Shown: positions 2,833-61,454 of the stretch, piece after piece
Layout: each line of letters starts with the position of its first letter
Position numbering within the stretch: the stretch's first letter is position 1
Source of the DNA: Nymphaea colorata
Lineage: Eukaryota > Streptophyta > Magnoliopsida > Nymphaeales > Nymphaeaceae
Direction of reading: 5' to 3'
DNA: 64,000 nucleotides
Assembly (NCBI RefSeq): GCF_008831285.2
Contig: NC_045138.2
Span: 17,331,934 to 17,395,933 of the forward strand
The notes under the pieces: generated by a model
The model's database searches: none
Told to the model about the DNA's origin: nothing
What the model saw: the letters and a program-made list of their open reading frames with translations, nothing else
Made by a program: the position numbers and the translations under genes

Positions 2833-2970
2833 TTGCATTAAGCTTGATAAGTTCGAGGGTTGATCATTTTTAGAATTCGTCCGCAGCTTGTCTCAGTCTC
2901 ATTGCTGTCTGTGCACCCTTTAGCAGATCAACAGCTATCCCTCGATTGATTTTAGATGTTGTTTGATAAA

Positions 2971-7441: not shown

Positions 7442-7575
7442 CAAATAACCACAAGTTATATCTATTGTATATCCTACCATGTCTAAAAATAGTAAAAATG
7501 GGCAGTGACATGAAACCATTCTAAAAACCTATGGGCACATTGGCCATTAAGCAAGCGGTACAACCTACGTACATT
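7442..7575 (+). pseudogene. Relict PR-4 promoter without a gene (unit 2)
   Basis: Same relic as at 1961–2095, carried along in the duplication of the whole unit. It differs from unit 1 only by one A in a homopolymer. Confidence 0.75.
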
Positions 7576-9765: not shown

Positions 9766-9930
9766 TTAATCATCAGAATCGTCACTTTCACTTCTAACAG
9801 GATCATCATCAGCCCCTCTTGTACCAGTATTCTCTGGCTTCTCAGGTGGTGCATGTCTGTTTTTAGCGCCAACGTCATTGGCATCTTCATGCTCCGTAGC
9901 TTCAGTGCGTGAACTGCGATTTGTCAAGGT
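9766..9930 (-). CDS. Possible terminal coding exon with an acidic tail (unit 2)
   Basis: Identical copy of the 4288–4452 candidate exon in the second array unit. Confidence 0.28.
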   Translation of the reverse strand, partial: TLTNRSSRTEATEHEDANDVGAKNRHAPPEKPENTGTRGADDDPVRSESDDSDD

Positions 9931-11860: not shown

Positions 11861-12919
11861 GTGACTAAATGGGCAGGAGGAGAAGGCAGCCCTAGCTGCT
11901 CACTAGCAGCAATATGTATCAATAAAGATGCCTTCTTCATAAAACAAAAACTCTCTCTCTCTCTTTCTCATGGTCGTATGATTGCCTCGGATCTTATATC
12001 TAAGGTTGAATTTTAATCCATGTGAGGTGAAATTCACATTTTAAGCAAGCAACAGATTTAACAACTGTGGTATAAAATAATTACCTTATGTGGTAGCTTT
12101 AGATCTCATATGGGTCCCGCAAAATTCAGATCGGACAATATCAAACTTATCCTAAATGTCTTTTATGGGGCACGTGGTGAATTTTCAACCAATTTTTTTT
12201 TTTTCGCGGGGGGTGGCTCAAAAAACATATTTTAAAAAAATTTTATATAGGTAAACTAAAATTTTAAAATTTATATATAAAAATACGAATTCTAGAAAAA
12301 CTGATATACCAAGTAGCCCTCTTCCCAAATATTAGACTTATGTATATGGTTAGCTCAAACATGTGATATTTGTTTACATTTAATAGGAAGAGCCATTCCA
12401 GAAAATGAATTTGTGCGACAATGGAAGACTTTGCCAGTCGATGATTCACTACAACAATATGGTCAAACAAGATTCATCAAGGCATTATCAAAGGCAATCT
12501 GTGTGTGTGTGTGTGTGTGTGTGCACGCACGCGTGCGTGCGTTAACAAGCCAAGTCAATGTAGTGTATAGTCTGAAGATGACTCCACACCATTTCAGTAT
12601 TATTGGTGAGACAAATTTTGCTAAATTATTTTCCATAATGCATGGAACCGCTAAAATCACAATTGAAGCTTGCCCAACATAATGGGCCATTAATTCGAAC
12701 AATGAACTTGTTTGAAATTGAAAGAATAGGAAAGACATGTTTTTGTTCCAAAAACAAACCAAAAAAAAAGTTGATATGATTATGCTCAATTTTGTATTCA
12801 TGGATTCAGAAGCAACATCTATAATGACGTCATGTTTTCTAAAAGAATAACATATTATATATCTAAAAGATAAAATGTTCTTCTTATCAAACACTCTCTT
12901 TTAAGGTTGTTCAAAATTT

Positions 12920-13054
12920 CAAATAACCACAAGTTATATCTATTGTATATCCTACCATGTCTAAAAATAGTAAAAATGGGCAGTGACATGAAACCATTCT
13001 AAAAAACCTATGGGCACATTGGCCATTAAGCAAGCGGTACAACCTACGTACATT
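12920..13054 (+). pseudogene. Relict PR-4 promoter without a gene (unit 3)
   Basis: Same relic as at 1961–2095, carried along in the duplication of the whole unit. Confidence 0.75.
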
Positions 13055-15247: not shown

Positions 15248-15412
15248 TTAATCATCAGAATCGTCACTTTCACTTCTAACAGGATCATCATCAGCCCCTC
15301 TTGTACCAGTATTCTCTGGCTTCTCAGGTGGTGCATGTCTGTTTTTAGCGCCAACGTCATTGGCATCTTCATGCTCCGTAGCTTCAGTGCGTGAACTGCG
15401 ATTTGTCAAGGT
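15248..15412 (-). CDS. Possible terminal coding exon with an acidic tail (unit 3)
   Basis: Identical copy of the 4288–4452 candidate exon in the third array unit. The partial fourth unit ends before this point. Confidence 0.28.
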   Translation of the reverse strand, partial: TLTNRSSRTEATEHEDANDVGAKNRHAPPEKPENTGTRGADDDPVRSESDDSDD

Positions 15413-16550
15413 CTAACAAGAAATTTAAATGAAGTAACCTACTAGGAGAAAGTCCAAAGAACCAACAATACAGAAACCAAGACGAATCTGAATCCCAGGA
15501 AGAACACATTTTTTTATATTGACATAGCCTCCTGATTCTGAGGCACACAATCACAGAACCAGTGGAGATGCTCAAAAAGGGAAAAAAATACTGTATAGAT
15601 CGTATCACAGAAAAAAAAAAAAGATGACATGAAAAAGGATATCTACATTCTCTGTGGTACCACGATATGTGAGAATGTTGACAATATCTCTCTCTCTCAA
15701 GAATAAATTGTTGTTCTTATCAAACACTCTTTTAAGGCTGCAACAGCTGGTAGAAGTCTAGTTTGAAGATTTTGTTAGTTTCCAAAGTACCAAAGCTGAT
15801 TCTAATCTGCCAATACTTATTTGCTGTCCTGGACTTGATTATTTTGCAATCTTAATCAGGCATCGTAGATGTGACATACTTTCTCATTAGAGATCAAAGT
15901 TTGAGACCTTTTCTCTACACTAAGAATTCTCTTTTATTGTTAAACCCCAATAAAATTTCATCATAGCATGACTACCCCAAACTACTGAATGATGTTTTTT
16001 GGGTTTTTAATTGTTTGACTGGCCGATGTTCGATTAGTAAATCATGAGAGGGTTTATGCCATGGCTTTGGGTGGGGGGTTAGTAGGCAGCTGATCTCCAT
16101 TTCAAATGTCAATGGCATCAACTACTTATACTGCAAAAGGAAGGTCACCGACGCCAAAGTTGAAGCGTACCAGGGACATAAAGGATTAAGTGGGAGCTTC
16201 AGCTCTTTGACAATGGGTGTGTGACGCATCTCCCCTCCAATTTAGCACTTTCACTTCATATGGAATGCCACCAATCAATAAAGTTCTGTGTAGACTGTAG
16301 ACCATACTTTAATATTTACATCAAGGTTTTACCCCATTAGATGCACTTTGTCATCCTTCAAATAACCACAGTCTATATTTACTGTATAGCTTACCATGGC
16401 TCCAAATAGTAAAAATGAGCAGTGACATGAAATCATTCTAAGAATATCTAAGGGCATATTGGCCATGAAGCAAAAGTTGCAACCTATAAATGGACGTTGC
16501 CCCTGCATTGCTTTGATATCGTAAGAACTTCGGTGCAGTGAAGGTCTCCT

Positions 16551-17420
16551 ATGGCTCTTAGCTGCCAAGCAGTCTTTCTGGTGTGGGTGGCGGCCATGGC
16601 TGCCGGGCTGGCTGTGGCTCAGGCAACCACAGTCCGAGCCACCTACCACTACTACCGCCCTGTCCGTAAAAACTGGGACCTCACTGCTGCAGGAGCATAT
16701 TGCGCCACTTATGATGCCGGGAAGCCGCTAGCCTGGCGCCAGAGGTTCAAATGGACTGCCTTCTGCGGTCCAGACGGGCCTGGATTCCCCGGTGCCTGTG
16801 GAAAATGTTTACAGGTGAGGGTAAAGTAATCCTTAGAGTATACATATTAAATGGCATTAGATTCAGCCCCTTTGAAACATTTCATGCCTAAAAGATAGGA
16901 ATATATGAAGCATTTTCTTTTTATGAGGATGCCCATATCTAATTAAGCAGATCTCTGCCAGTTTAACCAAGACAAGCACCATGGTAATTGAAATATTATT
17001 GACCTCCTTTACTTTAAGGGGTGTGGCTCAACTGGTTTGGCCAGCGGCTCATCGGCAGCCAGTCACTAGTTCATATCTCAGAGGCACCCGCTCCTTTCAA
17101 CAGTACATGCAGGCCAAGACCTAAGGCCTAAGGTCCGAGAAATGACCATGGGACATTTATGTCATGGGCATGCAACAAATTAAGTTTCTTATCAATGGAT
17201 GTGTACCAAAATTAGCACGATGACCTAAGTTGAAGAAGGTTTTTTGATTCAGGTGACGAACCAAGCAACAGGATCGCAGCTGAAGGTGAGGATAGTGGAC
17301 CAGTGCGCTAATGGAGGACTGGACTTGGACTGGTCTGCATTCAAGCAATTGGACACCTATGGCAACGGCCATCAACAAGGGCATCTCATGGTAGACTACC
17401 AATTTGTAAGCTGTGCTTGA
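16551..17420 (+). CDS. PR4: Barwin-domain PR-4 protein, copy 4 (terminal, diverged 3' half)
   Basis: Exon 1 (16551–16814) is identical to that of the other copies. Exon 2 (17253–17420) differs by two replacement changes, giving DTYGNGH where the others read DTNGNGY. The intron is 438 bp instead of 360 bp because it keeps about 78 bp of a SINE-like insert that copies 1–3 lack. Substitutions begin abruptly near 16941 in the intron and continue through the 3' UTR, while everything to the left matches. The protein is still 143 residues, with the six barwin cysteines and the signal peptide intact, so it looks functional. As the last member of the array it escapes homogenisation on its right side. 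AATAAA lies at about 17479–17484. Confidence 0.9.
17016..17160 (+). mobile_element. Longer SINE-like insert in the intron of PR-4 copy 4
   Basis: This is the same A-box and B-box-like start as in the other copies, with several substitutions, followed by about 78 bp of body that copies 1–3 lack. It is probably the fuller ancestral form, with the other units carrying a deletion; the reverse order cannot be excluded from sequence alone. Confidence 0.4.
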
Positions 17421-17783
17421 GAGACTAAATGGTCAGGAGAAGGCAGCCCTAGCTGCTTACTAGCAGCAATATGTATCAATAAAGATGCCTTCTTTTCATA
17501 AAACAAAACTCTCTCTCTCTCTCTCTCGCCTTCCTTTTGTTTGCAATTAAGGTCAAACCGATATGGATGGGGAACAGATAACAGCGCGGTTCAATCACAA
17601 TACGTGAGTCTACATCCACTATCAGAAACACCTCTTTCTCACTCTGTTTCTTTTCACCAACATTTATTCCACACCATTACAGACACACACACACACACAC
17701 AGATTCCTCTCTTATTTATGCTCAGTACCTATTTTGAATACGCAAGCTTTTACACGTAGTTGATTTTGTGGATGTAGATTGAT

Positions 17784-18083: not shown

Positions 18084-18378
18084 ACGAGGTGAACTAAGGG
18101 CTTTTGACACTAAATCAGCAATCTGCTCAGTGGTAGAAATATAACGAACTTGAAACTGATTTTGCTAAATATAGTGACACAAAAACTGAACGTCAATATC
18201 TAGATGCTTTGTGCACAAGTGGTTGAGAGGATTAACAGATAAATTAATAGGCAGTGAAAACATTTCTGCACCAAAGAATAGGTTATGTTTGCGAGGTCAC
18301 CTTAAGTTCTTTCAGTAGATAAGTAAGCCAGAAGACTTCAGCAGTAGCATTGGGAAGAGAACGATACTCTGCTTCTAT
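18084..18378 (-). mobile_element. Fossil Ty1/copia fragment (RNase H end of pol)
   Basis: Read on the minus strand, the translation shows hallmarks of the copia RNase H region: IEAEYRSL, then ATAEVFWLTYLLKEL, and further on KHLDID and an EQIADL-like end. Only this short 3' part of pol is present. No LTRs, integrase or reverse transcriptase are seen nearby. It is a small broken remnant, probably old. Confidence 0.8.
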
Positions 18379-18411
18379 ACTATAGTATAGAATGGCGCTG
18401 CAGAGTATCGT
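18361..18411. repeat. Fold-back inverted repeat with a nested palindrome
   Basis: ACGATACTCTGC (18361–18372) recurs inverted as GCAGAGTATCGT (18400–18411). Between them, 18373–18392 (ttctatactatagtatagaa) is itself a perfect palindrome. The left arm lies in the copia fragment. Confidence 0.85.
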
Positions 18412-18621
18412 TTTTATCCAGCGCTTGGTGAGTATCACCTATTTTAGGGTGTCCTTGGAATAGCGTGTTACAGATACCAAACGCCCTCTAAGCGAACAAC
18501 ACCAATATCATGTTGAGGAGTTTCACCTTTGATAGTCAACTAGCTTAGTAATGTTGCTAATTACATTTTCTTTTGTTAGCAATCAGTTGGTGTTACGTAT
18601 TTTCGTATTGCGGTGATCACT

Positions 18622-19565: not shown

Positions 19566-22500
19566 TCATTGATTGAAATCCACAGAGCAGATAACCAAAT
19601 CCGCGTTTTTCTTTGACTTCATAATAAGCTCTGCGTTAGGTCTGTCATTATATTCAACCTAACAATCACCAAAAGAAAGGGAAAAAGTTAATATATCAAA
19701 AGATAGCCAGCACAAATTATTAATACCACATAGAAGGATCAAAATGAACTAAACACCAAATGGTTTAGGCTTACCCGCCATTCAGCAACATCTGGTGCTT
19801 TCCCTGTGAATGTCGACAGTGACGGTGGATGGTCAAGGTTTAATAAGCGAAGGAAGCTCAAACTTGCAAGAAGAGTAATGGAAAAACAAACCTGTTGCAA
19901 TATGCCGATTCACAACTCGCTTCATCGATTTGTCAATGTCAATGTCAATAAACCTTAGTTGAGAATGTGGAAATGATTAGGAACATAAAACCAGGATACA
20001 CTTAAGGCAACTGAGTTAAATAGCCTCTGATCAAGATGATCACCATTTCTCATCAAATACACGTGAAATATCCTTCCAAACTCCATCATCCAAGAGCAGA
20101 TAATTTCCTTCTACTATAACTAACTTTTGCCTGCATTTATGTGTGTCAAGGCAAAATATCAAAAACGTTAAGGTCAATAATCCACAGAAAGTTAAAACTA
20201 GGAAAACAGAACCCATGTTTTAAAACCATTTACCAGATAACCCATTATATTTCACCATATACAGAATGTGTAACAGTAGTAGTATTTTGAGAACTAGCTG
20301 AACTGGGTTTCAGAAGACAAACAAATATATTCTTAGTATGAGCATCAAACAACACGCCATGTGCAAATACAAGTCATAGCAACAAGGCATGCAGCATCTG
20401 GCTGGACTGATTGGCTTAAGCCCTTTTAAGTTGAAGGAGGTTAACTGTATAGCTCAGGTTCAAATTATATATCCAGATTCCAATCTACAGTAATTATGCC
20501 TATAAAGTTCCAATTAGTATGGCCACTAAGTCACTAGTTTAAAGGTCACGTGTCTTCCAGTACTCCAATGCTGCAAACCGTTTTTTGTCTCAGAAATTGT
20601 AGCCAACTGGAACCCTTGACACTATATGTGCCGCTTGAATAATTATTAAACCTATACGCAGCAGCATCTGTACTTTGCCACATTCAGTTACTTTATCAAA
20701 TGGCAAGATGCTTGAATTTGGTCTTCGAACTAAGATATGCACTTTTCCATGACATTGTCACGCTGGGAGAAGGGACTTGCATTTAACTCCACAGGTTTTA
20801 GCTCCAGTGAGTAAATTGAAAGAAAGTAAGAAAACAACAGGATATAAGGGATCCTGTCTCAACAAGATGGACTTTACCTAACTGAAACCTGGTCACTTGT
20901 GTGCACGAACAGGATGTTTGTTTCATTGCCTATGGAATGGTACATCCAATGGGCAGCAAAAAGCAACAAATCTGCAGAATGTCAAAATGTCAAAATGTGC
21001 CAAAATGGCATTCTGCAGCAGAACAGAAGCTCCATGTTGTTATGCAGTATCCGTTTCACTCGGCACATACATGGCCCCTCACCGGTATCCAGGAACAGGA
21101 AATCAAACGTGCCTAAGCAACATATTTTGTAACATCAAACACCTAGCTTTAGCTTAATAGAAATAAGTAAAGTTCTGACACAAATAATGAAGGAAGACAA
21201 GAGTTGATTGACTTACTTCATACCCACAAATATATCATCTTCTACAGGATCTCCGACACCATGATCAAAAGATGGTACATAAACAGATCCCTGATGGAAT
21301 TAGAACAACAGCAGAAGAACGCAAAATCTAATTTCAGATTTTCAGCCAAGCTCATGGCAACAGCCTATCAAACTCAAACACACCCAATTTCTCCAAAATT
21401 GACAACCAATGATATATCCAACTCTTCATCAAATGAGTCTCCTATGTTTTCAAACATCACGAGGATACTAAATTTTGTCAAGCACAAGTATTTCAAACTT
21501 CAGTGAGTGATTCAAAACACAAAGCCTGGAAAAGGTGACTGGGAAGAACACAAACTTCTTGTACATAAGTTTGTAACCACAAACTGACACAGAAACAAGG
21601 AAAATGTAAAAAATTTACCTTTTCTTTCAAGGTCGTAAGACATGCTAGCAGTCGTACTGGATCAAACGTCCATGGAGCTGAGATTAAGGATATCAAGATC
21701 AGTATCATATTATGCTTCACTACTTTTATGCATCATAAATTGGAAAAGCTCACCTCCTCTCCTTGCATGTGCTTCGTCTGGATCCTACAAATTAAAAGTG
21801 ATTAAAAAATTTAGAAATTATTAAATAGCAAGAAGATTAAGTGTATTTCCATCACCACCACCAGAAACAGCAAGATCTACAGAGTCCTCTTCATCCAAGT
21901 AACAGATAGTAAGATATGTACTCGGCAAACATTCATATATACTAACCTCCATTGCATCAAGCTGAGAGCGGTAAAGATGAAATCCATCCATTGGCACGAC
22001 AGTTGCAAAATTGCTAGCTTCTACAAGACCATCAAATGAAGGAGCTTTTTGGGGACATATCATGTTCAGACGCCGAACTACTTCATTTGCAAGAGTTGAC
22101 TTGCCAGCTCCAGGAGGACCAGCTAGCCCTACAATGTATCTGTTAGCCATGCATATAAAAGCAGAAAATTAAAATAAGGAAACAGTTGTACTACCCAAGT
22201 TGACCATCAAGCAAATTACTCTTTGTGCCATTCCTGGTAACCTCAACCAAAGAGACATGCTACTTGCCCTAGACTCTAAGGTGCCATATTGCCTTCATGT
22301 TTTCATACTTAAAAGTTGTGTACACCAGATGGCCCTGCATTTTTACTGCATTATGTGGATTTGTCTGAATCGACTAGTTGTTTGAGCTACTCCATTAGTT
22401 CAATTACTTAGAAACACTTTTTCAACAAAGAATAATTAAGAAAAAACAAGTTTGAGGCAGCAACCAAAAACAATGCAGTTGAAAAGACTAAAGTACACGT

Positions 22501-29950: not shown

Positions 29951-30040
29951 TTCTATCCTCTGCCTCCTCCTTCCCACTTTCTCTTTCTCTCTCCCTTTCT
30001 CTCTCTGTCGATCTCTCTCTCTCTAGAAGTTCTATCTAGA
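29925..30040 (+). promoter_or_regulatory. CT-rich leader/core promoter of FBL17
   Basis: A run of CTCTCTCT and CCTCC words ends just before the start codon. Such pyrimidine tracts are common in the 5' UTRs and core promoters of plant housekeeping genes. No TATA box is obvious. Confidence 0.45.
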
Positions 30041-30051
30041 AGGCGGGGAAG

Positions 30052-33000
30052 ATGCAAGGGGGAGGGGCGCCAGAATCCGGCGAGGGTGGTGGCGCAGTCC
30101 ATTGCGTTCCAGCTGCCCGGCTGGCTACTGGCAAGAGGAGGGGGAGCTACAACTGTGGGAGGTGTGGACTCCCCAAGAAGGGTCACACCTGCACCTCCTC
30201 TATCTCCTCCCCCTCCCTTCACCACCCTCCATTTCTCACGCCACCGCCCATCTCCTCCCTTCCTCCGCCCTCCTCCTCCACCACAGCTGCCGCTCCCAAG
30301 AATAAGCCCCCAGCACACTCCTCCGCCTCCCGCCGTCACCTCGACTTTACTGCCGAGGTAGCTGCAGGCTCGGGCGGCGCGGTTCCGGATGGATGTCTGG
30401 CTGAGGTTCTTCGGAGGCTGCCGCCGCCGGCGTTGCTGGCTGCGGCGCAGGTGTGCCGGGAGTGGCGAGAGTGCGCTGCCCTTATCTGGGCAGCTACCGA
30501 GGAGATCCGTATATCGGTTGGTCGGAGGCCAACGGCGTCGATCGGCACTGTTCTGAAGAAATGCCCCATGCTCGCCCGCCTCTCGCTTCGGATCGAAAGG
30601 TTGGGGGAGTGGATTCGCATTTATAGTACCTTGCCTTTCGCGTTTCTTCATCGCCGATATTATTTTTGCTTTCAGTGGTCTCTTTGACCGTGGTGAAATA
30701 GCAGAAAAAGTGTTCAACTTGCGAAATGTTTTCCCTTTTGTTGGGTTTCCTGGTCGGCGACCTGATCTTAGAATACTGGTTAGGTGTGAGATGCGGCAGA
30801 ACGTATAATCTCTAATGGATGTGAACTGGTTTTTTCACAGTGAGATCGATGCTACCGTTTTGGCGTATATCGCGTTCATCTGTCCCAATTTGGAGGGGTT
30901 GGAGATCCGGATAGCTGAATCTGCAGCTAATAGGATAACTGGGTTTGTATTCTTCTCTCCTGTTTGATGCTCTTCCAGTTTAGTCCCTTCACTTGGTCAC
31001 GCTTGAGTTTTGGGTCTCCTTTTTGAAACATCTAGTCTCTATTTTGCAAGTTCTTGGTTAGCGTATTAGCGATTTGGCGATTATTTGGGTCCGTATTCTT
31101 TCATTACTTTCTCTCTTTGATGACGATGATGGTGACCGAACTCGAAAATCTGTTCAATCTACCTGGCCTTAACTATTCTACTCAAAGAAGCCACAAGGGA
31201 GCTCGGATGGATGCTAATGGTGATGATAATAACGATCACAGCGGCAATGGCTGCGGTGATGTTTCGTTTGTCCTGATCGAACCTTTTCTGATGTTGATAG
31301 TGGTGTATCGGGTGATTTTGGTTGTAAATCGGTTATTAATATTGATTTCTATATTGATCTGGGTGGTGCTGCTTCTACCATATACTGCATAATCCAGCTC
31401 TTTTAAGCATGGAAGGCTTATTCGATATGTTTAGGGTTATGCGCTCTTTTCAATATTTTTTCATGCTTTTTTTTGTCCAGACTATCCATTAGATGTATGC
31501 GATCCAGCACCCACGACGGTTAGAGATGTGCTCTTCTGTTTTTCCGATTATTTTCTCTTGTTTAGTTAAGTACAACATGTGATCCATTAGTTGCATGTGC
31601 CGCTGTGCACTCACGCCCGCAAGGATCTTGAATCTGTGTTTCTTGCTCTTGTATATGCTAAATATCATCCTCATGGCCCGTGTTGCACATTTACTTTATG
31701 TACTTATAATTGTACTTTACGGTCTTGATGTGGCTTTGTGGTGGTTGAGGAGGATGTCGTTTTAGGATCCCTACATTTTCCCTCTTTTTGTTTTTCCCCT
31801 TTTAGCTGTACCGCATCTGCATCATCTAACCTTTGCAAGCCTGTGGTAGTTCTTCTTAGTTCACTTTTTCTCATGACATGCGTGCAGCTCAATGACTTTG
31901 TTTCTGTCATCTTCTGTGATTTGGGTTCGTGGAATTCTTTGCTAACACTAGCACTAGCTTTCCCTCCTTCATTTCTGAGCCACAACTTTTATTCTGCAGG
32001 GATGAGCTTGGCCGTTTTGTTTCAGAAAGCAAATATCTTTCTGTTTTAAAGATTGAAGGCTGTACAAATCTTGGTCGTCTTGTACTGTACTCATCAAGTC
32101 TAGTAACCCTCTGGTTGTCAGATCTCTACTGTCTGAGTGAAACGGTACCTAGTGCTTGTTAAGTTGCTGCAGTATATCACCACTTTACTGTGCTCAAATT
32201 TCTTATGCATTTTTTTCTTGCACTGTCTTAATATTGTAGGTGCTGAACTGTCCTAGCCTGAAAGAGCTTTCTCTTGATTTTGTTCGGGATGAAAATGATT
32301 CAACTGATCTATGTAGCATGGCAGAAAATCTTGGAAGAAGCTGTCCAAGGTTGCGAAACGTACATATTGCTTCTGTTCGGCTATCTCATAACTTTGTCCT
32401 TGCACTTACCAGTGCAAACTTGAGGTTTGTATTGCTTCTGATCGCAGAACAAATTGGGGTTTTGTGGGCATGAACAGATCACTAATTGTAGCTTGAGAAT
32501 GCAGTTAGCGTCATTATGATACCAGTTCGTGTTTTTTTATTTTTAACTCTTCATTTGTCAACCGTGTACAACAAGCAAGCATACATGCACACTCTCGACA
32601 GTTAGGAGGGAAAGGAAAAGCAATATTTTCTTGTTTCCTACAATGTTAAATTCACTTAAGATTTTGTTCTAAAATCTTCAGTTCAACACTGTAGCCTATA
32701 TTTTGCATGTCTGCATTCTATACTTACCTTTTCACTATGTTTCGTTTAGCTTGTCAGCAAGCTTGGTTATGTTCCTTGTTATAGTATGTTCTAAGTCTGC
32801 TGTCTTTTGTCATCTGCTTTTTTCTGCAAATTGGTCAATGGTTATGCATTGCTGGAACTTCCTTTTCTCTTTTCTCGCTTTGGGATTCTCATGCCATGGC
32901 TTTACAAGTTAGTGTCTGTTTATGCAGGAGTCTACGCATGCTTGCCCTGTTGCTTGGTTCAGAAATTACAGATGCATCTGTAGCTGCCATTTCCTCAAGC

Positions 33001-37442: not shown

Positions 37443-38007
37443 TCACTCTGCAAGTAACTCCTGGAGCAAGGGTCCGCATTCGGGGAGGGGTTCCTTCTTC
37501 AAGAAACCAATAGAGTTCGCGTAGCGCAGGCGGGAAGGCATGCCACTGTTCTTGGCCAGGAGGACTCGGGCCCGGTTGCGGTTAGGTGAGAGCTCGTTGC
37601 AGTCAGCCATGGGGCTTTCTGTTACCATCACCTCACAGATATCATCTTCATGCTCGCCGGCCACCGGAATCTGGTAAGTTCCTGTTTCATCTGTTACTCC
37701 ATCTATGACCACCTTAGGATGGTCGCCTTCGCGATCTTCGCATTCAATTTTGAGAGGCACACCTATAATTGCCCGAAAATCATTACAAGAATATGAAGAA
37801 CACTAAAAACAAACACGCCCTAGAGGATTTTGAGCAGCACTTTGGATCATTACCAGAGATGTAAGTGGTCAGGTTCGTCTCGAACCCGGCTCGGCAAGTG
37901 TCGCAGTAGACTCGGCCTGTGACGATGAAATCCGAGCAGCTGGCCAATCTAACCAGCGACAAACAACAAATGGAGGCAATGGCAATAAAAGCAATGGATC
38001 TTGCCAT
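37443..38007 (-). CDS. Pollen Ole e 1-like secreted protein
   Basis: Exons 38007–37854 and 37762–37443 (minus strand) joined by a 91-bp intron (gtaatg...ttatag) give 157 residues. Residues 1 to about 24 are a signal peptide (ending LVRLASC). The Ole e 1 hallmark VTGRVYCDTCRAGFET follows, then PLKIEC, GVTDETGTYQIPV, HEDDICEV and the C-terminal NSIGFLKKEPLPECG. Six cysteines in the mature part fit the family's disulphide pattern. Ole e 1-type proteins are secreted, often pollen-tube or cell-wall associated, and include pollen allergens; their biochemical role is uncertain. The second exon has no ATG at its start (it begins with the split GGT codon, then GTG), so the first exon is required. Confidence 0.92.
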
Positions 38008-38349
38008 CCTTTCTCCCTCAACTCTTTTCCTTCAATGGCCTCTTACTTCTGTCCGGTTCTAACCTCGAGACAATTTACAACGGAGAGTTTGCAGCCTCGG
38101 GCATGGTTTAAAAAGAGTAGAGCAATTGAATCTGGCAGTTAGAAGCAGTTACTCTCCATTCTCTTTATATGGTGGAAATGGATCCGACCGACCATTTCTT
38201 CGGACTCTCAAATCTAACAAACTGCTATATATAAGTTGTGAACCGAAGGAAGGGCAACAACTCGTATGTTTGGGATGCAAAATGACCAAAAAGTTCCCGA
38301 AATTTAAAAATGAAAAGCTCTCATATGAGAACAACAACAAAGGAAATGA

Positions 38350-39820: not shown

Positions 39821-41433
39821 CACATACAATACAGTTTCCATATTAACCATACAAATTTACCAATAAAATTTATAAAAAAACGTTTCATTAATATGAAAAC
39901 TTCCCTCAACAATAGACGATTTATTTGTTTTCTCGAAAAATTTCAACATAAGCTCCACATCTTCAATATCGGTAAAAGTAAATATATATAGTTTAAACTA
40001 TTAGTTTCTTAATTTCAATGCAATATTCAATTATATATGAATATTACTAAATATGGTTAAATATGTGAATACGAAATAATCTAATTAAGTTTGTCTTCAT
40101 TAAAAGCTTGTTCGTTTCCTGTCACGTTAATCACAGTTTAAATTAGTAACCGATTGACAAAAAGATGTTTCTGTTTTCTATTACAGTTGATTCTTTTGTT
40201 GAAAACGTTCCTCTTTTTTAACATTAGAAAGGTTGCCAAAACCAACGAGTATTTAAAGGGTGTCTGTAACTTTTTCATGAATAAATATTCCCTTCCAAAT
40301 GGCCCAATCGTGGCACTAATAGGCGTATATCAGAAAATACATTTGAAGCACATGTAGTTTGAAATAGCACAAATGGGCTAATTGCTAATTAAAAATGTAC
40401 GACCATGGTGTGTTTTCTATTATATTCGATTCTTTCATTCAAAAGTTTTCTCTTTTTTGACTTAAGCTAGTTATTATTTTCAAATTTAATATTAGTACGT
40501 TTTTTTTCTTCAAATGGAACTTCAAATATATGCTTCATCAAAGACTGACCCAAACTATACCTTAAAGTCACATTATGTTGATAACCAATATGATTTATTT
40601 AAGTATATGTATTAATAAAACATCTGACCTACAACTTCCTTTTATCCCTCAGCCACCAACTGACAAATTGACAATTTTTTACAATAAGAATATGCTATAT
40701 AGAGGGACCTAGCTAAGTGATTCGAATATTGCCTTAAAAGATTTAAAATCCCACTAGTTCAATTTGTTTTTTTAATGCATTTGGAACATTAGACCCAAAT
40801 CATTCGTGTTTTTAGTTATACTTAAAGCAAAGCAAGAACAAAAATAGATTTAAATCCTCCCCTTCATCAACATTGGTAAAAACAAAGATATATAGTTTAC
40901 CTTATTTTAGCTTAGCTCAATGTAATATTTAATCTTCTGTTACATTACTAAGTATAGTTAAATACGTGAATACAAAATAATCCAATTAAGTTTGTCTTTA
41001 TTGAAAACATATAAGTTTTCTGTCACATGAATACTAGCTTAAATTAGTAACCAATTGGAAAAAAAAGGTTTCTAAGTGCAGAACCTTGGCTCATTTTTAA
41101 CAATATAAAAAAGTGATGTTTCGACCTTTTTCTATTCTAGTCATTGAAAAGTTTTGGCTTTTTTAACTTTGGAAAAGTCCGCAATAACAAACAAGTATTT
41201 AATTTTTTTTTCAAGAATAAAATCTCCCTTTTAAAGTAATCACCCAACCGTGTTGCTCACAGGAGTATATTTGATAAAGCACAAAAAAACCGCGTGCAGT
41301 TTGAAATAGCATAAATAGGCTCTTTGCTATATAACATGGTTGCGTGACTTCATGTGGAGGTTGAAAGAGAAAACGAAAGCTCACAGACTTCTCTTTGATT
41401 CTGAGGGCGAACAACTGCTGTCTTACTGAAAGT

Positions 41434-41440
41434 TATATAA
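41434..41440 (+). promoter_or_regulatory. TATA box of small gene 1
   Basis: TATATAA inside GTTATATAAAGGG, 67 bp before the ATG. The paralogue has the same GTTATATAAAGGG at 60923–60935. Confidence 0.65.
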
Positions 41441-41500: not shown

Positions 41501-41988
41501 ATGGCGCCTAAACGGGAAGCAAGGGCAAGTGTAGCGAATTCAAATATGAGAGAAGGGAAAGCAATATGTAATCACTTTCGGCAACGGAAATTCTGGAGGA
41601 GAAACGTTGACACACAATTTCAAACAGTACTTAGTTTTTATGTGAATTATATTTCATTTAGATTATGATTAAGCATGTCGTAATATTTTTACTTTGTTTT
41701 TTCTTTTTTGCAGCCACTCATCTCTGGGGTAACAGAAGAAGAAGAACACATCATAAAGGTGTCAGACAACGATCAGCTGGAGTTGTGCATCGCTGCCCGG
41801 CGTGATGATCCGTATGTGTTACTGCCTTTTGCTTTTTATATGATCATCGGATTTTATCTGTCATTTTTCTTAACGCTTGATCATGTTTTCTTAGGAAACT
41901 GGTGTTTTGCCTGCGGATTCCTGCAAACCTGGAAGATCTTAAACAAAGGGCCGAAGCAGCAGGTTTTAAAGTAGAGGTGGAGCCTTAG
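41501..41988 (+). CDS. Small three-exon gene 1, unknown family, 105 residues
   Basis: Exons 41501–41626, 41714–41811 and 41895–41988 join in phase. The paralogue at 60985 has the same splice phases and the same 98-nt middle exon. The protein starts MAPKREAR with a basic N-terminus of about 42 residues. Exon 2 gives GVTEEEEHIIKVSDNDQLEL. Exon 3 gives FCLRIPANLEDLK, RAEAAGFKVEVEP and a stop. The acidic middle followed by a strand-like LRI segment weakly recalls a PB1/OPCA-type fold, but the match is too poor to assert. I do not recognise the family. It has its own TATA box. No signal peptide or membrane segment. Conservation of exons 2–3 between paralogues supports a real gene; expression is unknown. 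Confidence 0.65.
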
Positions 41989-44340
41989 AAGAAGCATGAC
42001 AGGCGCTTTCTTCATTTTCTTAAGTTCAGTTTAGGGTTCTGTAATAATGAAGATCAGACTATCTTTGCACTCTTTATGCATGCATGTGTGATTTTACAAT
42101 CAGATGTGCATTTCTGTTTACTTTATACGTTTTTCCAGGTACTGTGCTGTAGTAGTTGAAGTGTGACTCACTATAATATATAGTCAATTAATGCACCTAG
42201 TTCTTCACTTCTTAGATTATTAGTTCTTAATTTTTCATTTCTTAGATCATACTAACGCAGCCAAAACTCGAAGGGGGTCTAGATTCACAGATGTAAAAGC
42301 AGGAGTCGGCTTATAGATCCATTAACCTGATCCGATTAGTCACAATGAGGACCATATAATCAAACCGCCGTATCCTTTTTTGCAGCCACTCGTAGTTTCC
42401 CATATCCAAAATTGAGCAATCATGTTATCTACATGGACCCGATCCGGAGACACGCTGCAGAAAATTGAACCATCTTGACACGTATCTGGGTTTTGAAAAG
42501 TTGATCCATTTAGGTATATGTTCAAGGTTGTGAAACTTTCATACTAATATCTTCCACGACGTTGGGCTTTCAAGAAAGATATCCATTTTCATGAACAAAA
42601 ACTCCAAACGGCACTTCCTTTAGGTGTTCGAACCAGAGTCAGATATGATTTGTTAATTCCACATCCTCCCATTCCAATTTTGATGTTGACACAACCCCGA
42701 TTTTGATCCGGTTCTGCAAGATCGGTATTTTTATTGGACTTAGTCTTTCGTTCCCACATTGGTTCAAGTTGGGGAGTAAGAAAACCATTGATAATCTAGT
42801 TAATTAGTTTAAGTTCAAGGGAAGTCAAGATTTTCAACCGTCGGAGCATTTTGTGAGTGTTTTATGAATCTACCTTAAATATTAAAGTCTATTCATGAAA
42901 CACTAGTACTAACTTTCTATGAATTTGCACCAATCATTACAGTAGATTCAAAGTATTTCATTTGCCAAACGAGTCACGACCATTGAAGGTGGCATAATAG
43001 GGTCTGCCTGAGCTCAACTTATTAATTTCCAAAAAATGGTACAAATTAATTTGATTTACCGGCAGATTCAAGAGTGTCGCATTGTTGATAACAAAGTAGG
43101 ATGTATATGAGTTACTTAGGCTGCTTTCCAAGGCATCAGTAAATACATCAAAAGGATAGGATAATGAAAATCATATATAGATCATATGTGGAAAGACTAA
43201 GACTATGCAAAGTATAACCATGATATACATAGTCCATTTATAGGGTGAGCAGAAATTACTAAGGCCCCCTCCTTCTTCTCTCAGCCCCAAGATTTAGAGC
43301 TGCTTTGGTACCAAGTGGTGAGATCTCTACATCGTGCAAGTTATGTTTGGTTAGGTACAACAAAGACAATGCCGCTATCATCTTTAGACAAGAACATTGA
43401 TAACATAAATTGTTTTGACTTAGCAAGTGATCTATACTAAATTATCCAAACACCACTATGGAAACGGCAAGAGGCGGAGTTAGCCAGGATTTTTGTCTTG
43501 TGGGGGCTGAGCGGCCAAATGGAATTACATACATATGATATATACACACTTTGAATATCAAAAAATATAAATATCTGAAACATTTTCCCAGGAGCCCATT
43601 ATAATTTTCTGAAATTCTAACAGAGGAAAAATTATTATTTTTGAATAAAATGACCGGTAAATTTGGAGTTGAAGTTTCAGTCTAGGAGCTCAAATAGGGG
43701 GATGCACCAGGTAGAGTATTATTCACCTACGAAATCCGAATTAAGTTCCAAGTTCTTCAAAATCCAAACTCAGTTAATTGAATTCGGTAATTGAAAAGTT
43801 GATCAGACGTCTTTTAAAACAACTCATCTGATTCAATTGATCTTTGCCGAATAATAGCGTTTAGAGGCAATATAGTATCTTGTCCACTACTGCTCATTTG
43901 TGGGAGGAGGAAGAGGCGGTGGCCACTACTGTGCGGTGCACGACATCCAGTCCTCGATACACGTTTGACCTTACCTGCCAAATACGGAAGGCCACTCTCC
44001 GTTGCTTTTCTATTTTTTTTTTAATTTTTGTTTCTTGAATCAGTAAACCAAGATTGATCGGTATTTATTGAAAAACAAGATTGATCGGTATTTATTGAAA
44101 AACAAGATTGATCGGTACTCGGTAGTTATTGAAAAACAAGATTGATCGGTAGTTATTGGAAAACAAGATCGATCTGTACTGTGGCGGTTATCCTTTTTTT
44201 TTTTAATTTTTGTTTCTTGAATCAGTAACCCAAGATTGATCGGTCTTTATTGAAAAACAAGGTTGATGGGTAGTTATTGGAAATCAAGATCGGTCTGTAC
44301 TGTGGCGGTTATCCTTTTTTCCCCCGCCTTTTTTCGTTTC
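41989..44340. other. 3' flank of small gene 1 and intergenic DNA
   Basis: The 3' UTR/flank shared with the paralogue runs to about 42180. Beyond it lie AT-rich DNA and an element-like stretch at 42845–42975 (starting GCATTTTGTGAGTGTTTTATGAATCTAC, ending in ATTTGCCAAACGAG) with relatives near 62815–62900. No gene. Confidence 0.45.
44048..44310 (+). repeat. Minisatellite of an AAGATTGATCGGTA-type unit
   Basis: Units of about 26–32 bp of the form AAGATTGATCGGTA(TT)TATTGAAAAAC repeat five times at 44048–44195, ending CTGTACTGTGGCGGTTATCC. The block then recurs in shorter form at 44230–44310 with the same ending. A T-rich GTTTCTTGAATCAGTAA stretch precedes both blocks. Confidence 0.85.
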
Positions 44341-46875: not shown

Positions 46876-49800
46876 GGGTGTTTGGATGACACCCTCTTCA
46901 AACTAGGCTATACATGTTTTGAATCCTTGATCTAAGACCAAAATCCAACAACTAAACCAAGTCGGAATAGAATTTTGATCCACAATGTAAATCTTCACTT
47001 CAAATTCAACACCAAATCCGAGTCAGATCAGACCTCTGACCCAACCTACTTCATGTATGATCAGTTGTAAATTTGATTGTTCATCCAAATAACCATCTGA
47101 TTATTTTTTATATCCACTAGAATTGTGAAGATTTAGCCCAACACTCTGAATCCAACGTTTAGGCCAATATTTGATTAGACCTTCGATCAACACGGCGGAT
47201 CTAAAACTGAAATGCAACATCTTAAACCGATCAGATTAGACCTCTGATCAAAGCCTTGTTTTGAAAGCTCTTCCAACATCTAAACCAGATCAGATTAGAC
47301 CTCTGGTCTGGAGCAGTGATGCAAAAGTGAAATCTGACATCTAAATCAGATGATGATTGTGCTTGCGATCTTGCTTGTTTGTTCATCATTCAAATCCATC
47401 ATACGAAGCTGATCATATTTCCCATGTGTTTTGAATACTTGAGCTAAAACCAAAACACAACAACTAAAGTAGGTGAGATTAGATGTTTGATCTACATTGT
47501 AAATCTTTATTCCGAATTGAACAACAAATCAGGGTCAGAACAGACCTCTGATCCAACCTACTTCAAGATAGATCAATTTGGTCATTCATCAAAATTACCG
47601 TCTGATTATATTTTATATCCAATTGTTCTTGTATGATGCAAGTGATGTTATTATATGATTAGATAAATGTTTGTTGTAGCATCACTTGTTTGAGAAGTTG
47701 GTCGGTAATAGTTTTAGGAAATGAGCTGTAAATGATATGAACGTTGTATGATCTCGAATGGTTCTTTGTATAGCGTTGGCAAGAAGATTGTTTTATCAAC
47801 GATTAAGACATGTATTTGTTAGAAAGTTAACTTTGATGTCGCCATCAAAAGAGCTTGAATTGAAGATTTCATATTTGATATATGTCTACATGGGAAAATT
47901 GGAATATTTATCCTTGGACAAAGATATAATTTCATTACAATGTCCTTCTTGATTGTTTATTCGGATATTTGAAAGTTAGGCCACATTATGTCAAGACATG
48001 GAATTGTTGAGATTTAGCCCAACATCTGAATCCAACGTTTAGGCCAATATTTGATTAAACCTTCGATCCACACGGCGGATCTAAAACTGAAATGCAACAT
48101 CTGAAACCGATCAGATTAGACCTCTGATCAAAGCCTTGTTTTGAAAGCTCTTCTAACATCTAAACCAGATCAGATTAGACCTCTGGTCTGGAGCTGTGAT
48201 GCAAAAGTGAAATCCAACATCTAAATCAAATGATGATTGTGCTTGCGATCTTGCTTGTTTGTTCATCATTCAAATCCATCATACGAAGCTGATCATATTT
48301 CCTATGTGTTTTGAATCCTTGAGCTAAAACCAAAACATAACAACTAAACTAGGTGAGATTAGATGTTTGATCTACATTGTAAATCTTTATTCCGAATTGA
48401 ACAACAAATCAGGGTCAGAACAGACCTCTGATCCAACCTACTTCATGAAAGATCAATTTGGTTGTTCATCGAAATTACCGTCTCATTATATTTTATATCC
48501 AACAGATCTTGTATGATGCAAGTCATGTTATTATATGATTAGATAAATGTTTGTTGTAGCATCACCTGTTTGAGAAGTTGGTCGGTAACAGTTTTAGGAA
48601 ATGAGCTGTAAATGATATGAACGTTGTATGATCTCGAATGGTTCTTTGTATAGCGTCGGCAAGAAGATTGTTTTATCAACGATTAAGACATGTATTTGTT
48701 AGAAAGTTAACTTTGATGTCGCCATCAAACGAGCTTGTATTGAAGATTTCATATTTGATATATATGTGTACATGGGAAAATTGGAATATTTATCCTTGGA
48801 CAAAGATATAATTTCATTACAATGTCCTTCTTGATTGTTTATTCGGATATTTGAAAGTTAGGACACATTATGTCAAGACATGGAATTGTTAAGATTTAGC
48901 CCAACATCTGAATCCAACGTTTAGGCCAATATTTGATTAGACCTTCGATCCACACGGCGGATCTAAAACTGAAATGCAACATCTGAAACCGATCAGATTA
49001 GACCTCTGATCAAAGCCTTGTTTTGAAAGCTCTTCCAACATCTAAACCAGATCAGATTAGACCTCTGGTCTGGAGCAGTGATGCAAAAGTGAAATCCAAC
49101 ATCGAAATCAGATGATGATTGTGCTTGCGATCTTGCTTGTTTGTTCATCATTCAAATCCATCATACGAAGCTGATCATATTTCCCATGTGTTTTGAATCC
49201 TTAGCTAAAACCAAAACACAACAACTAAACTAGGTGAGATTAGATGTTTGATCTACATTGTAAATCTTTATTCCAAATTGAACAACAAATCTGGGTCAGA
49301 ACAGACCTCTGATCCAACCTACTTCATGAAAGATCAATTTGGTAGTTCATCAAAATTAATTGTCTGATTATATTTTATATCCAAGAGTTCTTGTATGATG
49401 CAAGTGATGTTATTATATGATTAGATAAATGTTTGTTGTAGCATCACTTGTTTGAGAAGTTGGTCGGTAACAGTTTTAGGGAATGAGCTGTAAATGATAT
49501 GAACTTTGTATGATCTCGAATGGTTCTTTGTATAGCGTTGGCAAGAAGATTGTTTTATCAACGATTAAGACATGTATTTGTTAGAAAGTTAACTTTCATG
49601 TCGCCATCAAAAGAGCTTGTATTGAAGATTTCATATTTGATATATGTCTACATGGGAAAATTGGAATATTTATCCTTGGACAAAGATATAATTTCATTAC
49701 AATGTCCTTCTTGATTGTTTATTCGGATATTTGAAAGTTATGCCACATTATGTCAAGACATGGAATTGTTAAGATTTAGCGCAACATCTAAATCCAGCGC

Positions 49801-52800
49801 TTAGGCCAATATTTGATTAGACCTTCGATCCACACGGCGGATCTAAAACTGAAATGCAACATCTGAAACCGATCAGATTAGACCTCTGATCAAAGCCTTG
49901 TTTTGAAAGCTCTTCCAACATCTAAACCAGATCAGATTAGACCTCTGGTCTGGAGCAGTGATGCAAAAGTGAAATGCAACATCTAAATCAAATGATGATT
50001 GTGCTTGCGATCTTGCTTGTTTGTTCATCATTCAAATCCATCATACGAAGCTGATCATATTTCCCATGTGTTTTGAATCCTTGTGCTAAAACCAAAACGC
50101 AACAACTAAACTTGGTGAGATTAGATGTTTGATCTACATTGTATATCTTTATTCCGAACTGAACAACAAATCTGGGTCAGAACAGACCTCTGATCCAACC
50201 TACTTCATGAAGCATCAATTTGGTCGTTCATCAAAATTCCCGTCTGATTATATTTTATATCCAACAGATCTTTTATGATGCAAGTGATGTTATTATATGA
50301 TTAGATAAATGTTTGTTGCAGCATCACCTGTTTGAGAAGTTGGTCGGTAACAGTTTTAGGAAATGAGCTGTAAATGATATGAACGTTGTATGATCTCGAA
50401 TGGTTCTTTGTATAGCGTAGGCAAGAAGATTGTTTTATCAACGATTAAGACATGTATTTGTTAGAAAGTTAACTTTGATGTCGCCATCAAAAGAGCGTGT
50501 ATTGAAGATTTCATATTTGATATATGTCTACATGGGAAAATTGGAATATTTATCCTTGGACAATGATATAATTTCATTACAATGTCTTTCTTGATTGTTT
50601 ATTCGGATATTTGAAAGTTAGGCCACATTATGTCAAGACATGGAATTGTTAAGATTTAGCGCAACATCTGAATCCAGCGCTTAGGCCAATATTTGATTAG
50701 ACCTTCGATCCACACGGCGGATCTAAAACTGAAATGCAACATCTGAAACCGATCAGATTAGACCTCTGATCAAATCCTTGTTTTGAAAGCTCTTCCAACA
50801 TCTAAACCAGATCAGATTAGACCTCTGGTCTGGAGCAGTGATGCAAAACTGAAATCCAACATCTAAATCAAATGATGATTGTGCTTGCGATCTTGCTTGT
50901 TTGTTCATCATTCAAATCCATCATACGAAGCTGATCATATTTCCCATGTGTTTTGAATCCTTGTGCTAAAACCAAAACGCAACAACTAAACTTGGTGAGA
51001 TTAGATGTTTGATCTACATTGTATATCTTTATTCCGAACTGAACAACAAATCTGGGTCAGAACAGACCTCTGATCCAACCTACTTCATGAAGCATCAATT
51101 TGGTCATTCATCAAAATTACCGTCTGATTATATTTTATATCCAAGAGTTCTTGTATGATGCAAGTGATGTTATCATATGATTAGATAAATGTTTGTTGTA
51201 GCATCACTTGTTTGAGAAGTTGGTCGGTAACAGTTTTAGGAAATGAGCTGTAAATGATATGAACATTGTATGATCTCGAATGGTTCTTTGTATAGCGTTG
51301 GCAAGAAGATTGTTTTATCAACGATTAAGACATGTATTTGTTAGAAAGTTAACTTTGATGTCGCCATCAAAAGAGCTTGTATTGAAGATTTCATATTTGA
51401 TATATGTCTACATGGGAAAATTGGAATATTTATCCTTGGACAAAGATATAATTTCATTACAATGTCCTTCTTGATTGTTTATTCGGATATTTGAAAGTTA
51501 GGCCACATTATGTCAAGACATGGAATTGTTAAGATTTAGCCCAACATCTGAATCCAACGTTTAGGCCAATATTTGATTAGACCTTCGATCCACACGGCGG
51601 ATCTAAAACTGAAATGCAACATCTGAAACCGATCAGATTAGACCTCTGATCAAAGCCTTGTTTTGAAAGCTCTTCTAACATCTAAACCAGATCAGATTAG
51701 ACCTCTGGTCTGGAGCAGTGATGCAAAAGTGAAATCTGACATCTAAATCAGATGATGATTGTGCTTGCGATCTTGCTTGTTTGTTCATCATTCAAATCCA
51801 TCATACGAAGCTGATCATATTTCCCATGTGTTTTGAATACTTGAGCTAAAACCAAAACACAACAACTAAACTAGGTGAGATTAGATGTTTGATCTACATT
51901 GTAAATCTTTATTCCGAATTGAACAACAAATCTGGGTCAGAACAGACCTCTGATCCAACCTACTTCAAGAAAGATCAATTTGGTCATTCATCAAAATTAC
52001 CGTCTGATTATATTTTATATCCAATTGTTCTTGTATGATGCAAGTGATGTTATTATATGATTAGATAAATGTTTGTTGTAGCATCACTTGTTTGAGAAGT
52101 TGGTCGGTAACAGTTTTAGGAAATCAGCTGTAAATGATATGAACGTTGTACGATCTCAAATGGTTCTTTGTATAGCGTTGGCAAGAAGATTGTTTTATCA
52201 ACGATTAAGACATGTATTTGTTAGAAAGTTAACTTTGATGTCGCCATCAAAAGAGCTTGTATTGAAGATTTCATGTTTGATATATGTCTACATGGGAAAA
52301 TTGGAATATTTATCCTTGGACAAAGATATAATTTCATTACAATGTCCTTCTTGATTGTTTATTCGGATATTTGAAAGTTAGGCCACATTATGTCAAGACA
52401 TTGAATTGTTAAGATTTAGCCCAACATCTGAATCCAACGTTTAGGCCAATATTTGATTAGACCTTCGATCCACACGACGGATCTAAAACTGAAATGCAAC
52501 ATCTGAAACCGATCAGATTAGAGCTCTGATCAAAGCCTTGTTTTGAAAGCTCTTCCAACATCTAAACCAGATCAGATTAGACCTCTGGTCTGGAGCAGTG
52601 ATGCAAAAGTGAAATCCAACATCGAAATCATATGATGATTGTTCTTGCGATCTTGCTTGTTTGTTCATCATTCAAATCCATCATACGAAGCTGATCATAT
52701 TTCCCATGTGTTTTGAATCCTTGAACTAAAACCAAAACGCAACAACTAAACTAGGTGAGATTAGATGTTTGATCTACATTGTAAATCTTTATTCCGAACT

Positions 52801-55800
52801 GAACAACAAATCTGGGTCAGAACAGACCTCTGATCCAACCTACTTCATGAAGCATCAATTTGGTCGTTCATCAAAATTACCGTCTGATTATATTTTATAT
52901 CCAACAGATCTTGTATGATGCAAGTGATGTTATTATATGATTAGATAAATGTTTGTTGTTGCATCACCTGTTTGAGAAGTTGGTCGGTAACAGTTTTAGA
53001 AAATGAGCTGTAAATGATATGAACGTTGTATGATCTCGAATGGTTCTTTGTATAGCGTCGGCAAGAAGATTGTTTTATCAACGATTAAGACATGTATTTG
53101 TTAGAAAGTTAACTTTGATGTCGCCATCAAAAGAGCTTGTATTGAAGATTTCATATTTGATATATGTCTACATGGGAAAATTGGAATATTTATCCTTGGA
53201 CAAAGATATAATTTCATTACAATGTCCTTCTTGATTGTTTATTCGGATATTTGAAAGTTAGGCCACATTATGTGAAGACATGGAATTGTGAAGATTTAGC
53301 CCAACATCTGAATCCAACGTTTAGGCCAATATTTGATTAGACCTTCGATCAACACGGCGGATCTAAAACTGAAATGCAACATCTGAAACCGATCGGATTA
53401 GACCTTTGATCAAAGCCTTGTTTTGAAAGCTCTTCCAACATCTAAACCAGATCAGATTAGACCTCTGGTCTGGAGCAGTGATGCAAAAGTGAAATCTGAC
53501 ATCTAAATCAGATGATGATTGTGCTTGCGATCTTGCTTGTTTGTTCATCATTCAAATCCATCATACGAAGCTGATCATATTTCCCATGTGTTTTGCATCC
53601 TTAGCTAAAACCAAAACACAACAACTAAACTAGGTGAGATTAGATGTTTGATCTACATTGTAAATCTTTATTCTGAATTGAACAACAAATCTGGGTCAGA
53701 ACAGACCTCTGATCCAACCTACTTAATGAAAGATCAATTTGGTCGTTCATCAAAATTACCGTCTGATTATATTTTATATCCAAGAGTTCTTGTATGATGC
53801 AAGTGATGTTATTATATGATTAGATAAATGTTTGTTGTAGCATCACTTGTTTGAGAAGTTGGTCGGTAACAGTTTTAGGAAATGAGCTGTAAATGATATG
53901 AACGTTGTATGATCTCGAATGGTTCTTTGTATAGCGTCGGCAAGAAGATTGTTTTATCAACGATTAAGACATGTATTTGTTAGAAAGTTAACTTTGATGT
54001 CGCCATCAAAAGAGCTTGTATTGAAGATTTCATATTTGATATATGTCTACATGGGAAAATTGGAATATTTATCCTTGGACAAAGATATAATTTCATTACA
54101 ATGTCCTTCTTGATTGTTTATTCGGATATTTGAAAGTTAGGCCACATTATGTCAAGACATGGAATTGTTAAGATTTAGCCCAACATCTGAATCCAACGTT
54201 TAGGCCAATATTTGATTAAACCTTCGATCCACACGGCGGATCTAAAACTGAAATGCAACATCTGAAACCGATCAGATTAGACGTCTGATCAAAGCCTTGT
54301 TTTGAAAGCTCTTCCAACATCTAAACCAGATCAGATTAGACCTCTGGTCTGGAGCAGTGATGCAAAAGGGAAATCCAACATCGAAATCAGATGATGATTG
54401 TTCTTGCGATCTTGCTTGTTTGTTCATCATTCAAATCCATCATACGAAGCTGATCATATTTCCCATGTGTTTTGAATCCTTGAGCTAATACCATAACGCA
54501 ACAACTAAACTAGGTGAGATTAGATGTTTGATTTACATTGTAAATCTTTATTCCGAACTGAACAACAAATCTGGGTCAGAACAGACCTCTGATCCAACCT
54601 ACTTCATGAAGCATCAGTTTGGTCGTTCATCAAAATTACCGTCTGATTATATTTTATATCCAACAGATCTTGTATGATGCAAGTGATGTTATTATATGAT
54701 TAGATAAATGTTTGTTGTTGCATCACCTGTTTGAGAAGTTGGTCGGTAACAGTTTTAGGAAATGAGCTGTAAATGATATGAACGTTGTATGATCTCGAAT
54801 GGTTCTTTGTATAGCGTCGGCAAGAAGATTGTTTTATCAACGATTAAGACCTGTATTTGTTAGAAAGTTAACTTTGATGTCGCCATCAAAAGAGCTTGAA
54901 TTGAAGATTTCATATTTGATATTTGTCTACATGGGTAAATTGAAATATTTATCCTTGGACAAAGATATAATTTCATTACAATGTCCTTCTTGATTGTTTA
55001 TTCGGATACTTGAAAGTTAGGCCACATTATGTCAAGACATGGAATTGTTAAGATTTAGCCCAACATCTGAATCCAACGTTTAGGCCAATATTTGATTAGA
55101 CCTTCGATCCACACGGCGGATCTAAAACTGAAATGCAACATCTGAAACCGATCAGATTAGACCTCTGATCAAAGTCTTGTTTTGAAAGCTCTTCCAACAT
55201 CTAAACCAGATCAGATTAGACCTCTGGTCTCGAGCAGTGATGCAAAAGTGAAATCCAACATCTAAATCAGATGATGATTGTGCTTCCGATCTTGCTTGCT
55301 TGTTCATATTTCCCATGTGTTTTGAATCCTTGAGCTAAAACCAAAACGCAACAACTAAACTAGGTGAGATTAGATGTTTGATCTACATTGTAAATCTTTA
55401 TTCCGAATTGAACAATAAATCTGGGTCAGAACAGACCTCTGATCCAACCTACTTCATGAAAGATCAATTTGGTCGTTCATCAAAATTATCGTCTGATTAT
55501 ATTTTGTATCCAACAGATCTTGTATCATGCAAGTGATGTTATTATATGATTAGATAAATGTTTGTTGTAGCATCACCTGTTTGAGAAGTTGGTCGGTAAC
55601 AGTTTTAGGAAATGAGCTGTAAATGATATGAACATTATATGATCTCGAATGGTTCTTTGTATAGCGTTGGCAAGAAGATTGTTTTATCAACGATTAAGAC
55701 CTGTATTTGTTAGAAAGTTAACTTTGATGTCGCCATCAAAAGAGCTTGAATTGAAGATTTGATGATATTACCCATGTGTTTTGAATTTGATGATATTACC

Positions 55801-60924: not shown

Positions 60925-60931
60925 TATATAA
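60925..60931 (+). promoter_or_regulatory. TATA box of small gene 2
   Basis: TATATAA within GTTATATAAAGGG, 60 bp before the ATG, conserved with small gene 1. Confidence 0.65.
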
Positions 60932-60984: not shown

Positions 60985-61454
60985 ATGGCGCCTAAAGATA
61001 AGAGAGTAGCATTACTGGAAGCATTAAATGGTCGCCTTCGGAACCGGGCAGTCAAATTGGGGATAGAAGAGAAAACTGTAACTAGTTTTCATGCTAACCA
61101 TTTTGTACATTACATTTTTTTATCATTGAATACGTAGTAATGTTTTTCATTTTTTCCAGCCAACCATTATGGGGATAACAGAAGATGGAGACCAAATCGT
61201 AAGGGTATTGAGCAACGATGAGCTGGAGACATGCATTATTATCGGGCGTCATAGTCCGTATGTGTTATTGGTTTTTGTTTTCATATGATCATTGGCTTTT
61301 AATTATCTATCTGTTGGTTCTTTTCACCTTTGATCTTTTTTTTCTTAGGTTTTCGTCTTTTTGCCTGCGGATTCCTGCAAACCTACAAGTTCTTAAACGA
61401 AGGGCTGAAGCAGCTGGTTTTAAAGTGGAGGTGGAGCCTTTGAAGAAACTTTAA
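60985..61454 (+). CDS. Small three-exon gene 2, paralogue of gene 1, 98 residues
   Basis: Exons 60985–61077, 61160–61257 and 61349–61454 join in phase, with the same phases as gene 1. The protein starts MAPKDKR and has a basic 31-residue first exon. Exon 2 gives GITEDGDQIVRVLSNDELET, and exon 3 gives FCLRIPANLQVLK, RAEAAGFKVEVEP and then LKKL before the stop. Relative to gene 1, exon 3 is nearly identical from FCLRIPANL onward and exon 2 is clearly alignable. Exon 1 shares little beyond MAPK and a short R-x-R word and is 33 nt shorter. No family is recognised. Both members remain open and correctly spliced in the model, which argues for selection on the C-terminal part. Confidence 0.65.

Follow-up and report, generated by a model that had tools for sequence, protein, structure and literature searches.

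The window analysed here, a stretch of 64,000 nucleotides from Nymphaea colorata, contains a small three-exon gene (M1) and, further along, a second gene of the same build (M2). Are these two genes members of a family in use, or are they what is left of one? We think it probable that M1 and M2 are intact copies of a small plant gene family, amplified in tandem and undergoing birth-and-death turnover.

Two genes with a common layout

The first-pass annotation described M1 as a three-exon gene of 105 residues with a TATA box and defined intron phases. Joining of the exons bears this out, giving 105 codons and a stop. The two introns, of 87 and 83 nt, are both bounded by GT-AG and lie in phases 0 and 2. 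The annotation also reported a paralogue 19 kb away with the same structure, and this too holds. M2 is found 19.5 kb from M1 on the same strand. It encodes 98 aa in three exons, separated by introns of 82 and 91 nt with GT-AG sites, whose places and phases match those of M1. A TATA box precedes both genes, and the spacing from TATATAA to the ATG is 67 bases in M1 and 60 in M2. The start context is shared and both genes start TATGGCGCCTAAA. The GC content is 0.43-0.51 in the exons and 0.22-0.31 in the introns. Positions of all parts are given in Table 1.

The two genes are not equally alike along their length. Exon 1 encodes a basic, fast-changing N terminus, with 53 of 93 aligned bases alike, and is 33 nt longer in M1, a difference divisible by three. 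No gap interrupts the alignment of exon 2 or of the part of exon 3 that both genes have, and 24 of the 30 shared residues of the C-terminal block are alike. The best conserved part of the unit is the 3' untranslated stretch (161/179 bases alike). This is above exon 2 (67/98, p 1e-5) and not significantly higher than exon 3 (78/94, p 0.12). An open stretch beyond the stop was noticed by eye in this 3' region, where the differences are too few to judge it.

Table 1. Parts of the two genes in the window and places of the family members in the genome (contig C1).
Feature	Window position	Strand	Genome position (C1)	Remarks
Upstream segment of M1	40410..41340	+		Diverged copies beside M2, M2b, C, D, E
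TATA box of M1 (TATATAA)	41434..41440	+		Also at 60925 in M2
M1, whole gene	41501..41988	+	17373434	Cluster, 184 kb read
M1 exon 1	41501..41626	+		126 nt, ends in phase 0
M1 exon 2	41714..41811	+		98 nt, ends in phase 2; predicted strands; 67/98 bases alike in M2
M1 exon 3 with stop	41895..41988	+		94 nt; C-terminal strand-helix-strand (predicted; M2 exon 3 peptide modelled), CLRIPANLEDLKQRAEAAGFKVEVEP
3' untranslated stretch after M1	41989..42168	+		M1-M2: 52/60, then 109/119 aligned bases alike
TATA box of M2	60925..60931	+		
M2, whole gene	60985..61454	+	17392918	Cluster, 184 kb read
M2 exon 1	60985..61077	+		93 nt
M2 exon 2	61160..61257	+		98 nt
M2 exon 3 with stop	61349..61454	+		106 nt
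M2b			17421373	Cluster; gene identical to M2
C			17443696	Cluster, 184 kb read
D, exon 2			17447402	Cluster, 184 kb read
E			near 17456833	Cluster, 184 kb read
F		opposite strand	near 17460858	Cluster, 184 kb read
G			23509134	Outlier, from the DNA search with M1

Further copies in the genome

A DNA search of the plant's own genome (assembly of 407.8 Mb, 783 contigs) with M1 as query returned at least 10 matching stretches in at least eight places, M1 included; all such counts are lower bounds. At least six further copies therefore lie outside the window, beyond M1 and M2. The family is clustered: seven of the at least eight copies sit inside 88 kb, as seen in the 184 kb read around the window, and the eighth, G, lies 6 Mb away.

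The copies are in very different states. M1, M2 with its twin M2b, and D are intact. In D, the three exons are all open, totalling 522 nt, and the introns are bounded by GT-AG. The other four of the eight are damaged. In C, exons 2 and 3 are open and the donor GT of intron 1 is lost. E has lost the acceptor of intron 1 and part of exon 2. F has a recognisable exon 3 without exon 1 or 2, and a 103-base piece of the promoter region is found 1.4 kb off. In G, the frame of exon 1 is shifted, the start of exon 2 is missing and exon 3 carries an early stop. In the alignment, M1, M2, C, D and G retain the TATA box, and that of E is changed. Exon 1 of D stands apart from that of the other copies: it encodes an acidic stretch of 110 residues composed of repeats such as TSEDSKA and TIAFEDSRA.

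One of the copies is a fresh duplicate. M2 and M2b belong to a block of 7.3 kb present at 17389726-17396997 and 17418181-17425462 of C1. The two versions of the block differ by 67 substitutions, every one within the last 2.2 kb. The gene lies in the first 5 kb, where there is no substitution and a single gap. This pattern suggests two ages or gene conversion. The family is thus turning over, with one fresh duplicate that is free of substitutions over 5 kb and others that have lost a splice site or exons.

Tests of selection on the coding exons

The first-pass annotation had named a Ka/Ks well below 1 in exons 2 and 3 of the pair as an outcome that would support its reading, and a value near 1 as one that would speak against it. 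The value found is about 1. For M1 and M2, dN is 0.295 and dS 0.292 by NG86, with YN00 giving 0.33/0.25 and maximum likelihood 0.35/0.24. Exon 2 alone gives 0.458/0.307 (ratio 1.5) and exon 3 alone 0.156/0.293. The 46 differences are spread 16/15/15 over the codon positions, and the exons (145/192) are no more alike than the introns (119/158). That the frame of exons 2 and 3 stays open despite these differences is weak evidence on its own, as chance does so in 32% of simulations; exon 2 stays open in all four copies by chance in 17%.

Comparison of more copies lowers the ratio. With M1, M2, C and D, dN/dS is 0.83 for exon 2 and 0.78 for exons 2 and 3 together. Exon 3, for which E and F could be added, gives 0.64, and its last 15 codons give 0.20 in the same six copies, this stretch having been picked after seeing the data. 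M2b, identical to M2, and the broken G were left out, as were E and F from exon 2, where they are damaged; the pairs compared are not independent. In a neutral simulation started from the consensus and ignoring the tree, the values were 0.18 for exon 2 and 0.11 for exon 3, neither rejecting neutrality, and 0.03 for the last 15 codons, where it was rejected for a stretch chosen afterwards. For the M1-M2 pair alone, the values were 0.08 for exons 2 and 3 and 0.025 for exon 3. In the four copies, 28 of 63 columns of exons 2 and 3 are invariant. These comparisons of coding sequence hint at a weak constraint that emerges with four to six copies and would be strongest in the last 15 codons. Since the broken E and F retain all but one of the last 15 residues, part of the C-terminal likeness may stem from recent duplication or gene conversion.

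Family searches and predicted structure

The first-pass annotation could not place the C-terminal block in a known family, and our searches agree. No significant Pfam match was obtained for M1, M2, their parts, C, D or a consensus, in a scan that drops most matches above E about 0.1. In NCBIfam, M1 and M2 as queries returned a single weak match, a BldN sigma factor at E 0.13. Among solved structures (PDB), there was either no match or one at E 0.4 and above. RNase_P_pop3 (E 0.14, consensus) and DUF6657 (E 0.06-0.11) were dismissed as weak, and so were the PDB chains of SPOR, PRDM4, Mnt and DR_1245 (E 0.4-1.4). The best PDB profile match, SPOR-domain chain 1x60, shares a short N-x3-L-x3-A-x-x-x-GF stretch; however, its E-value of 0.42 is not significant and the likeness spans 19 positions.

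With M2 as query, no relative was found in viral contigs, prokaryote contigs or plasmids. As these collections are not from plants, absence there says nothing on other plants. The strings AEAAGFKVEVEP, CLRIPANL and EAAGFKVEV occur in none of the open-licence full texts searched, which proves little. No known RNA family reached its gathering score in the window.

The exon peptides of M2 were modelled singly, each as a peptide alone with two sequences. The exon 2 peptide is predicted as three strands (mean pLDDT 81, pTM 0.38); for that of exon 3 the prediction is strand-helix-strand (mean pLDDT 84, pTM 0.46).

Possible role of the protein

Each copy would comprise three exons behind a TATA box, with a short 5' leader that is deduced from the distance between TATA box and ATG. 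The putative product of M1 likely works as a protein. It would most likely be small, soluble and intracellular, no signal peptide being apparent by eye. From the peptides predicted singly, it may consist of an N-terminal tail free to vary, a strand meander from exon 2 and a strand-helix-strand from exon 3. Because constraint concentrates in this last part and the N terminus varies freely, the way of working that we would put forward before others, tentatively and with more doubt than confidence, is that of a small binding or adaptor protein acting through the exon 3 strand-helix-strand.

Alternative explanations

M1 and M2 could instead be decaying relics of a gene that no longer works. The cluster would then be disappearing, with frames that chance has left open since duplication happened not long ago. 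A pairwise ratio of about 1, with differences spread evenly over the codon positions, fits this idea, as does the simulated frequency with which exon 2 stays open in all four copies. Because that ratio comes together with damage in four of the eight copies (C at its donor, E, F and G), decay remains a serious alternative, although we consider it unlikely. The start, the splice sites and the frame are kept in M1, M2/M2b and D, the length of exon 1 has changed by a multiple of three, and dN/dS falls below 1 when more copies are compared. The unit might also be mobile, either as an element in its own right or as a gene fragment inside one. The region is rich in local duplications, and the upstream segment recurs after M2 and M2b without a gene copy following closely. 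Yet the gathering of seven of the at least eight copies found in one cluster is the pattern of tandem duplication. Inverted-repeat pairs occur around M1 (4) and M2 (14), but none of them frames the unit. The proteins match no transposon family in Pfam, and a strong hit to a transposon protein was one of the findings that had been named in advance as speaking against the gene. We regard a mobile origin as very improbable.

Descent from a PB1 domain is likewise very improbable: the protein would derive from the latter half of such a domain, made up of the acidic hairpin and the last strand, and would have gained its C-terminal tail anew. Visual inspection suggests a likeness between exon 2 (EDGD...NDELETCI) and the acidic half of PB1 (PF00564), with an acidic stretch followed by NDELE; the predicted C-terminal strand-helix-strand is an addition. 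A profile comparison (hhalign, six PB1 sequences) beat 198 of 200 shuffles for the whole protein and 200 of 200 for exons 2 and 3 with two copies, and 148 of 150 for exons 2 and 3 with four copies. However, the hhalign probability was 2.8-5.2%, a reversed-protein control came close (15.4 vs 17.5), and PB1 had been picked by eye before testing. As a positive control, 43 residues making up half of a PB1 domain were recognised by Pfam at 3.4e-13; M1, M2, C, D, the consensus and exons 2 and 3 gave no PB1 match there. PB1 domains are marked by a lysine in beta-1 and the OPCA core D-x-D/E-x-D/E, a core that type-2 PB1 domains do not require, according to PMC7051960. This core is present in none of the four copies (M1, M2, C, D), anywhere in the protein. 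As for the beta-grasp fold of PB1, the exon 2 peptide on its own is modelled as three strands (pTM 0.38) rather than strand-strand-helix. A PB1 origin is thus unsupported by Pfam with its control, by the profile comparison, by the core pattern and by the exon 2 model. Finally, the family might be a new kind of small plant protein, with a variable N-terminal tail and a kept C-terminal core, diversifying as in an arms race near the barwin/PR-4 array. The diversification is proposed because the M1-M2 ratio of exon 2 exceeds 1; we hold this reading to be improbable.

A probable fast-changing small gene family

Tandem amplification with birth and death therefore stays our preferred account of M1 and M2. 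Orphan gene families of plants encode short proteins in few exons, match no known family, occur as tandem copies, change fast and include broken copies. The M1/M2 family is like them in each of these respects. Orphan families are lineage-restricted; for the present family, the search among plants covered its own genome. Such lineage-specific (orphan) families (PMC9305701) are the closest known kind. The M1/M2 family looks like a real, fast-changing small gene family, ordinary in kind, and by itself it changes no known mechanism. If transcribed, it would bring together intact copies, damaged ones and a fresh duplicate in a compact setting, in which the retention and loss of small plant proteins could be studied.

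Neighbourhood of the two genes

The window spans 17331934-17395933 of C1 and is plant-like nuclear DNA, with tandem units that carry barwin/PR-4 exons (PF00967, E 2.4e-25 and 3.5e-22). These gene units, of about 5.48 kb and 99.8% alike, occupy positions 1-17527 of the window and 17326317-17349011 of C1, the array starting about 5.6 kb before the window. A short frame at 18286-18438 (-), without Pfam match at E 0.01, is by eye like the end of what we take to be a copia-type polyprotein. An exon with a P-loop lies at 21824-22168 (-), its Pfam matches all being below the cut-off. A short stretch at 42840-42950 and 62828-62959 matches in both orientations, like a hairpin-type transposable element. 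Between M1 and M2, a tandem array of an 880-bp unit extends over 47120-55760, with a GC content of 0.34. Nine of its units are nearly complete (95.8-98.4% like the first), others are pieces, and the longest open stretch, of 66 codons, is in a doubled unit. At 30040-30684 (+) there is an F-box exon (PF12937, E 1.4e-7); leucine-rich exons may come after it, up to about 34 kb. An Ole e 1-like gene (PF01190, E 3.8e-9) is located at 37446-38031 (-).
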